The notes under the pieces: model-generated | Told to the model about the DNA's origin: nothing | The model's database searches: none | What the model saw: the letters and a program-made list of their open reading frames with translations, nothing else | DNA from: Candidatus Bathyarchaeota archaeon B26-2 | GTDB lineage: Archaea > Thermoproteota > Bathyarchaeia > Bathyarchaeales > B26-1 | Direction of reading: 5' to 3' | Length of the DNA: 39,755 nt | Assembly (NCBI GenBank): GCA_001593935.1 | Contig: LUCE01000011.1 | Coordinates: forward strand, 1-39,755 | Shown here: positions 492-32,276 of the stretch, piece by piece | Position numbering within the stretch: position 1 is the stretch's first letter | How the letters are laid out: each line of letters opens with the position of its first letter | Translations under genes and position numbers: made by a program

Positions 492-500
492 TTTAAATAT
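492..500 (+). promoter_or_regulatory. TATA box for tRNA-Asn
   Basis: TTTAAATAT predicts a transcript start near 520-525, that is, a 5' leader of about 30 nt before the tRNA at 554. The leader contains CAGAG and CTCTG (536-552 region), which can pair as a small hairpin. Confidence 0.55.
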
Positions 501-553: not shown

Positions 554-739
554 GCCGCCGTGCATATACGCCGCAACCGGCGTGTATGGACGAGAGCTCA
601 GTAGGTAGAGCAGCGGATTCCTGAAAGGGCTTATACGTCCTTTCAGGAGGCTGAGGCTGTTAACCCGTTGGTCGACGGTTCGAGTCCGAGGGCGGTGACC
701 ACTCCTAGGAGGTCCCGCCCGGCGAATCCGGCGGCGCCA
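554..739 (+). tRNA. tRNA-Asn (GUU) interrupted by three introns
   Basis: Joining 554-561, 595-616, 656-688 and 727-736 gives a perfect 73-nt tRNA: acceptor GCCGCCG/CGGCGGC, positions 8-9 TA, D stem GCTC/GAGC, anticodon stem GCGGG/CCCGT with loop CTGTTAA (anticodon GTT at 659-661), T stem GACGG/CCGTC with loop TTCGAGT, discriminator G736, and CCA encoded at 737-739. Intron 1 (562-594, 33 nt) lies between positions 8 and 9 and holds an 11-bp hairpin. Intron 2 (617-655, 39 nt, or shifted by one base) splits the 5' strand of the anticodon stem and holds CCTGAAAGG/CCTTTCAGG. Intron 3 (689-726, 38 nt) splits the 3' strand of the T stem and holds GGGCGG/CCGCCC plus GACC/GGTC. All three are at non-canonical positions. 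A splicing endonuclease gene lies at 31689. Confidence 0.95.
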
Positions 740-31032: not shown

Positions 31033-31692
31033 ATGGTCTTCTCGACCGAGACTGAGCAGAGGGCTAAGGTTAGGGCGTTAAGCGTTTCACAAGACCATCT
31101 CCGGAAGGTTGTTGAGATATCGCGTAAGGTAGCTCAGCTCGTCGACAGATTTTTGAACGAGGATGAAGCCTCGGTCAAGAGCCTCTACGCCGAGATACAG
31201 ACTTTGGGAGACGAGATCGACGAAGCTAAGCGAAGGGTTGCCCGTGAACTCGTCGAGATAGGAGCTATCTTGATGAACCGAGAAGACTTCCTCCGCTTCA
31301 CAGACTTGACGAGCGAGGTAGCTGACTTCTGTAAGGGCATAGCGTTCCGCCTCCTAGAGATTATGGAACGGAGATGGGATGTCCCGCTCGAGGTAAAGAC
31401 GGGATTAAGCAAACTCACGGACGCCGTCTTTGACACGGTCTTAAGACTGAGGGAGACCCTACTCGTACTGAACTATGGTTCACCGAGGGTGTTAGAGAAG
31501 GCCAAGAACGTAGAGATGGCGGAGAGAAACGTCGACGACCTCTATAGGGGCCTCGAGATCGAGATACTGAGCAGTAAGATGGAGACTCCAGCCCTGCTCC
31601 TGATGAGAGACGTCATCCAGCTCCTAGAGGACACGGCTGACAAGGTTGAAGACGCGGCTGATGCTGCGCGTATACTGGCGTTCAGTATGTGA
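31033..31692 (+). CDS. DUF47 / PhoU-like protein
   Basis: 219 residues, nearly all helical, with the repeated acidic patterns of the PhoU/DUF47 fold (for example LYAEIQTLGDEIDEAKRRVA and DVIQLLEDTADKVEDAADAA). Such proteins bind metal clusters and accompany Pit-type phosphate transporters or regulate polyphosphate, but no phosphate gene is close by. ATG at 31033 is preceded by GAGGCGGAAGG. Its last codon overlaps the start of the tRNA-splicing endonuclease gene. The 225-nt region before it holds a GGGTG-AGG-CACCC hairpin near 30860-30880 and no gene I can firmly support. Confidence 0.88.
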   Translation: MVFSTETEQRAKVRALSVSQDHLRKVVEISRKVAQLVDRFLNEDEASVKSLYAEIQTLGDEIDEAKRRVARELVEIGAILMNREDFLRFTDLTSEVADFCKGIAFRLLEIMERRWDVPLEVKTGLSKLTDAVFDTVLRLRETLLVLNYGSPRVLEKAKNVEMAERNVDDLYRGLEIEILSSKMETPALLLMRDVIQLLEDTADKVEDAADAARILAFSM

Positions 31693-32276
31693 CGGAGAGT
31701 CTCGAAGGCATGAACGGGAAGATCGAAGCTGAGTTCGTAGAGAACTTCTTGGTGGTGTGGAACCCAAAGGAGGGCTCCGAACTCTACAAGCTCGGGTTTT
31801 ACGGTAAGCCTGTTGGGATACCTAAACCTAAAGTAGCTGACTTCGATGTCCCGCTTATATTGGACGTGATGGAGGGGCTGTACCTACTAGAGAAGGAACT
31901 GATAACGGTCTTCGAGAGAACCAAACAGAAGAAGAGAACGAAGGTCAAGTTTGAGAGGCTTCGAAGGAGAGCGAGGAAACTCTACGAAGAGTTCGACCTC
32001 AAATACGCCGTCTACAAAGACTTGAGAGATAGAGGTCTCATAGTCACTCCAGGAGTCAAGTATGGTTGCGACTTCGCTGTCTACAAGTATGGACCCGGGA
32101 TAGACCACGCCCCTTACCTCGTCTCGGTTAAGAGCCGAAAGGACGAGATAACAGCCGCCGAGATCGTGAAGGCTGGAAGGCTCGCAACCACAGTGCGGAA
32201 GAGGTTCATAATAGCGGTTCCAGACTTAGAGAAAGACTCGGTAGAGTACCTCATCTTTAAATGGTTCAAGGCGTAA
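31689..32276 (+). CDS. endA: tRNA-splicing endonuclease (EndA)
   Basis: It cuts bulge-helix-bulge introns from pre-tRNA and pre-rRNA. The 195 residues hold an N-terminal domain (SELYKLGFYGKPVGIPKP) and the C-terminal nuclease domain. The catalytic tyrosine is in GVKYGCDFAVY, the histidine in GIDHAPYLVSV and the lysine in TTVRKRFIIAVPDL, so the active site is complete. Length fits a single catalytic subunit, which can act as a homo-oligomer or pair with a structural subunit coded elsewhere. GTG at 31689 overlaps the DUF47 stop. An ATG at 31710 (residue 8) is an alternative. The intron-bearing tRNAs at 0.3 and 0.6 kb are likely substrates. Confidence 0.95.
   Translation: MTESLEGMNGKIEAEFVENFLVVWNPKEGSELYKLGFYGKPVGIPKPKVADFDVPLILDVMEGLYLLEKELITVFERTKQKKRTKVKFERLRRRARKLYEEFDLKYAVYKDLRDRGLIVTPGVKYGCDFAVYKYGPGIDHAPYLVSVKSRKDEITAAEIVKAGRLATTVRKRFIIAVPDLEKDSVEYLIFKWFKA

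Follow-up and report, generated by a model that had tools for sequence, protein, structure and literature searches.

A tRNA-Asn gene with three non-canonical introns in a Bathyarchaeia genome, and the introns of its relatives

Introduction

Can a gene of 186 nt specify an ordinary 73-nt tRNA-Asn, and how would the intervening sequences be removed from its transcript? The question arises from an earlier note on a 39,755-nt stretch of DNA from Candidatus Bathyarchaeota archaeon B26-2 (the window), in which positions 554 to 739 were read as a tRNA-Asn carrying three introns, all at non-canonical positions. Three introns are the known maximum for an archaeal tRNA; they occupy many sites and are found chiefly in Thermoproteales (PMC4033280, PMC4090602, PMC8450103). 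The note had described three introns in one tRNA as rare, and multi-intron tRNAs as known mainly from Thermoproteales and a few related lineages; multi-intron tRNAs are not confined to Thermoproteales (PMC4033280, PMC8450103, PMC11291895). Multi-intron tRNAs are also described in Caldiarchaeum (PMC3293823) and in two Asgard groups (PMC11291895).

A multi-intron archaeal tRNA gene was expected to yield a complete, normally paired tRNA after intron removal, to form a bulge-helix-bulge (BHB) or relaxed BHB motif with symmetrical cuts in 3-nt bulges at each junction, to be the sole gene for its tRNA in the genome, and to be accompanied by a splicing endonuclease (EndA) of a kind able to process relaxed motifs.

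Results

The window corresponds to the whole of C38, one of the 73 contigs of a draft genome of 1.89 Mb. The completeness of this genome is estimated at 99.82% and its contamination at 3.2%. The tRNA-Asn(GUU) gene, its genomic CCA included, lies on the plus strand at 554–739. Exon 1 (554–561; mature positions 1–8) is followed by intron 1 (562–594; 33 nt) at site 8/9, exon 2 (595–616; mature positions 9–30) by intron 2 (617–655; 39 nt) at site 30/31, and exon 3 (656–688; mature positions 31–63, with the anticodon GTT at 659–661) by intron 3 (689–726; 38 nt) at site 63/64; exon 4 (727–739) holds mature positions 64–73 plus CCA, and all of these features are on the plus strand. The span, intron lengths and insertion sites reported before were recovered exactly on re-analysis. 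When spliced in silico, the exons gave a 73-nt tRNA in which all 21 stem pairs were formed, with U8, anticodon GTT, G73 and the encoded CCA, so that the perfectly paired tRNA-Asn predicted for removal of the three introns was indeed obtained; ARAGORN and the orthologues described below agree with this assignment. The four exons are contiguous and in order within 186 nt, and the gene is neither split nor permuted. Each intron contains its own hairpin, of 11 bp in intron 1 and 6+4 bp in intron 3 as previously described; that of intron 2 is 13 bp long (two of the pairs being G-U) and not 9 bp. Moving intron 1 by a single base, which would put G at position 9, breaks the splice motif, and this placement was discarded. 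The three-intron gene is thus a confirmed observation, and its earlier reading as a tRNA-Asn with three non-canonical introns is supported as essentially right.

Upstream of the gene, a TATA-like box, TTTAAATA (492–499, plus strand), is a possible promoter element as judged by sequence alone. Another tRNA, either Met or Ile2 by its CAU anticodon, has an intron in the anticodon loop and is encoded divergently at 299–389 on the minus strand.

The junctions were scored against a 3-4-3 BHB layout (a 4-bp central helix whose two strands, exon bases written first, are each followed by a 3-nt bulge, with the intron helix between), with cuts placed after the second base of each bulge (slashes below). 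The fit at 30/31 was perfect; the strict motif of intron 2 (CAGC GG/A ... GCTG AG/G) has four central pairs and two outer pairs (A23-U33 and G24-C32). At 8/9 the motif of intron 1 (CGCC GT/G ... GACG AG/A) has two outer pairs (G1-C11 and C2-G10) and one C.A mismatch in the central helix, and the perfect helix of CGCC with GGCG is found in the orthologous loci L044 (G006), L052, L094 and L111. The motif at 63/64 is relaxed (AGTC CG/A ... GGCG AA/T), with three central pairs, one of them G-U, an A.G and one outer pair; a perfect helix, AGTC with GACT, is found in L104. Junctions unable to form any BHB had been named as a finding that would speak against the reading, and this is not the case: all three can form one with symmetrical cuts in 3-nt bulges, by sequence though not by energy. 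The observed motifs of introns 1, 2 and 3 were reached by 0, 0 and 7 dinucleotide shuffles, respectively, per 20,000; these counts, together with orthologue introns at the same three sites, argue that the introns are not a product of chance.

Pairing at 30/31 was followed through 25 distinct orthologous sequences. The central helix was paired in 100% of cells, as CAGC/GCTG, CAAC/GTTG or CGGC/GCCG with one G-U, and compensatory exchanges (A-U/G-C and G-C/A-U) were present. For the entire 10-pair structure, 98.4% of cells were paired, against 24–56% in slid controls, which preserve relatedness; the covariation score was reached by none of 500 shuffles, a comparison that relatedness inflates. RNAfold and its partition function, on the other hand, gave the BHB registers almost no weight, in local segments and in the whole precursor alike, and returned an alternative fold of lower energy. 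We attribute this to the standard energy penalty on 3-nt bulges; the caveat is weak but real. The register preferred by RNAfold for intron 2 was rejected, as it includes a pair that is impossible in 14 of the 25 sequences.

The gene adjoins that of topoisomerase VI subunit A in the window, and in the genomes of several named relatives a tRNA-Asn gene lies, as here, no more than a few hundred bases from it, which identifies these as the same locus. At the level of topoisomerase VI-A, the window shares 93% identity with its nearest named relative, Candidatus Bathyarchaeota archaeon B26-1 of the same genus, and 67–84% with other Bathyarchaeia. Across 38 Bathyarchaeia tRNA-Asn loci (the window's included), 31 have introns: three in 4 loci, two in 11, one in 16, and none in the remaining 7. 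The sites occupied are 8/9, 30/31, 49/50, 59/60 and 63/64; positions 48/49 and 57/58, considered for two relatives, were rejected since the motif places those introns at 49/50 and 59/60. Besides the window, three introns are present in G010, which has the identical 8/9, 30/31 and 63/64 set and belongs to another family, in B24-2 (8/9, 30/31 and 49/50) and in bin30 (8/9, 30/31 and 59/60). Two-intron loci combine 8/9 with 30/31 (nine) or 30/31 with 63/64 (two), and single introns are at 30/31 in thirteen loci, 63/64 in two and 59/60 in one.

In a tree of eleven topoisomerase VI-A sequences, the window pairs with B26-1 as its sister (97/97), and the only difference between their tRNA-Asn introns is the one at 8/9, absent in B26-1. 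As the next relative of the pair (L068) has this intron, the simplest reading is its loss in B26-1. The sisters bin30 and CSMAG_2176 (99/99) likewise differ only at 59/60. Among these relatives the intron content of tRNA-Asn turns over one intron at a time. One genome (G034) has two tRNA-Asn genes, one with introns at 8/9 and 30/31 and the other at 30/31 only (L033 and L181), which may reflect a duplication or a mixed bin.

A predicted processing enzyme, the catalytic (alpha) subunit of EndA, is encoded in the window at 31689–32276 on the plus strand (PF01974, 7.9e-30; Aeropyrum pernix EndA, 3p1z_B, E=1.6e-40). It aligns with the A. pernix enzyme over almost its full length and keeps the catalytic Tyr, His and Lys as well as the lysine of the Crenarchaea-specific loop aligned to K44, the residue that confers broad specificity on A. 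pernix EndA (PMC6379350). A second EndA gene, on contig C44, lacks a histidine at the catalytic position and is therefore assigned as the structural beta subunit. An alpha subunit with triad and loop lysine and a separate beta gene predict, by sequence, an endonuclease able to act on relaxed motifs. Two EndA genes were found in most of the Bathyarchaeia genomes searched, and the present genome also contains an RtcB ligase gene (2.8e-177). The alpha gene lies 31 kb from the tRNA-Asn gene, its predicted substrate, on the same contig, and nothing indicates that this linkage is other than fortuitous.

In the processing route that we propose, the precursor would be transcribed with all three introns. 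In the 4-bp central helix at each junction, the exon bases immediately upstream would be matched by intron bases lying shortly ahead of the 3' splice site, leaving two 3-nt bulges next to the hairpin of the intron itself. EndA, presumably an (alpha-beta)2 heterotetramer of broad specificity, would cut both bulges behind their second base, after which RtcB would join the exons. Removal of the introns could follow any order, plausibly while the RNA is still emerging. The three motifs lie on mature nucleotides 1–11, 23–33 and 56–66, each being drawn from sequence local to its own intron; because these sets are disjoint, each motif can form independently and no order of splicing appears to be forced. 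It had been proposed that stems must form before BHB sites exist, which these positions do not support: the motifs are disjoint and local, and it is the stems of the finished tRNA (acceptor, D, anticodon and T) that compete with them. This competition makes early, local and possibly co-transcriptional cutting plausible.

On another reading the introns are genuine but are removed in a fixed order, the formation of one motif having to await the loss of another intron. Dependence of this kind is known from certain archaeal tRNAs whose several introns lie close together (PMC8450103), and it would be in keeping with the failure of RNAfold to show the motifs in the whole precursor. We consider it unlikely here, since the three motifs are disjoint and adjoin their own introns, and since relatives exist with the intron at 30/31 alone, at 63/64 alone, at 8/9 and 30/31, and at 30/31 and 63/64. 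From these relatives, the 30/31 and 63/64 motifs stand without the others, and that at 8/9 without 63/64.

The unspliced gene was called neither by ARAGORN nor by the Rfam tRNA model, whereas ARAGORN called tRNA-Asn(gtt) after removal of introns 1 and 2 and, likewise, of all three. The expectation that a standard search would miss the gene therefore holds for these two programs; tRNAscan-SE 2.0 in archaeal mode is, however, designed to find multi-intron tRNA genes (PMC8450103). This invisibility would also suit a decayed pseudogene with insertions, the work being done by a normal copy elsewhere. No such copy was found by BLAST and an anticodon-arm pattern in the 99.82%-complete genome. BLAST of the genome with the whole gene gave, beyond the locus itself, chance word matches only, and the pattern had a single zero-mismatch match across the genome, at 554–739. 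Several one-mismatch matches were inspected; two were tRNA-Ile and tRNA-Lys, and the others yielded no spliced tRNA-Asn. The uninterrupted second tRNA-Asn(GUU) that had been named as evidence to the contrary was thus looked for in the genome and was not found. With all mature pairs intact, and with introns kept at the same sites in other genera with compensatory changes, the pseudogene reading is already largely refuted, and we regard it as very improbable. Being the only gene found for tRNA-Asn in the genome, the locus must be functional.

Other tRNAs of the same genome that were missed by Rfam or scored low were also spliced automatically; several solutions were ambiguous, and the clear ones alone were used. 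A tRNA-Lys(CTT) (L202; G000:C17, near 47434–47562) has introns at 30/31 (36 nt) and about 37/38 (20 nt), and its spliced form was called by ARAGORN. Apparent non-canonical introns are present in L191, L197, L205, L207, L213 and L215, the clearest being in tRNA-Leu(TAA), tRNA-Gly(TCC) and tRNA-Ile(GAT); L191 may hold two or more.

An assembly artefact or a contaminating contig, for which the 73 contigs and the 3.2% estimated contamination might be cited, has next to no chance of being correct, given a neighbouring topoisomerase VI-A 93% identical to that of B26-1 and the tRNA-Asn gene that B26-1 has at the corresponding position, where two of the three introns are present.

Discussion

We conclude with high confidence that the locus is a working tRNA-Asn(GUU) gene in a Bathyarchaeia archaeon, with three BHB introns that would be cut by EndA and the exons joined by RtcB; its transcription and splicing are inferred. 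The phenomenon is already known in archaea; the gene adds a further case, and its orthologues a useful series for comparison. With the three-intron tRNAs of Thermoproteales (Pyrobaculum, Thermofilum; for example P. islandicum tRNA-Pro(UGG), 25/26, 37/38 and 56/57) the gene shares three short introns per tRNA, BHB or relaxed BHB junctions and a two-gene EndA; it differs in its lineage and in leaving the canonical 37/38 site unused. Sites 8/9 and 63/64 are not in the site list of one review (PMC4090602), a list that is not exhaustive. The Asgard Atabeyarchaeia and Freyarchaeia (PMC11291895) also have multiple non-canonical introns in uncultured archaea outside Thermoproteales, but they belong to a different phylum and 92–95% of their tRNA genes are interrupted (PMC11291895), whereas many are intronless in the present genome. 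In Caldiarchaeum subterraneum tRNA-Thr(GGU) (PMC3293823), as here, the disruption of one tRNA gene varies among close relatives; there the variants come from a single population and are associated with plasmid-like insertions, while in tRNA-Asn the variation is between species and concerns short BHB introns only. No report on tRNA introns of Bathyarchaeia was found in the literature searched, most subscription journals being outside its scope.

With this gene the range of triple-intron tRNAs comes to include Bathyarchaeia, an uncultured lineage widespread in sediments. It also illustrates that an indispensable gene, the only tRNA found for its amino acid, can escape common tRNA finders entirely. 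The orthologues, with zero to three introns, make gain, loss and splicing order directly testable by in vitro EndA assays. There is about an even chance that tRNA introns turn over unusually often in Bathyarchaeia, a hot spot that would have gone unreported, with at least five sites used in one orthologous tRNA-Asn, in differing combinations, and precise loss or gain of single introns between sister genomes. If so, these loci would provide a series from which to decide by what routes archaeal tRNAs acquire and lose introns.
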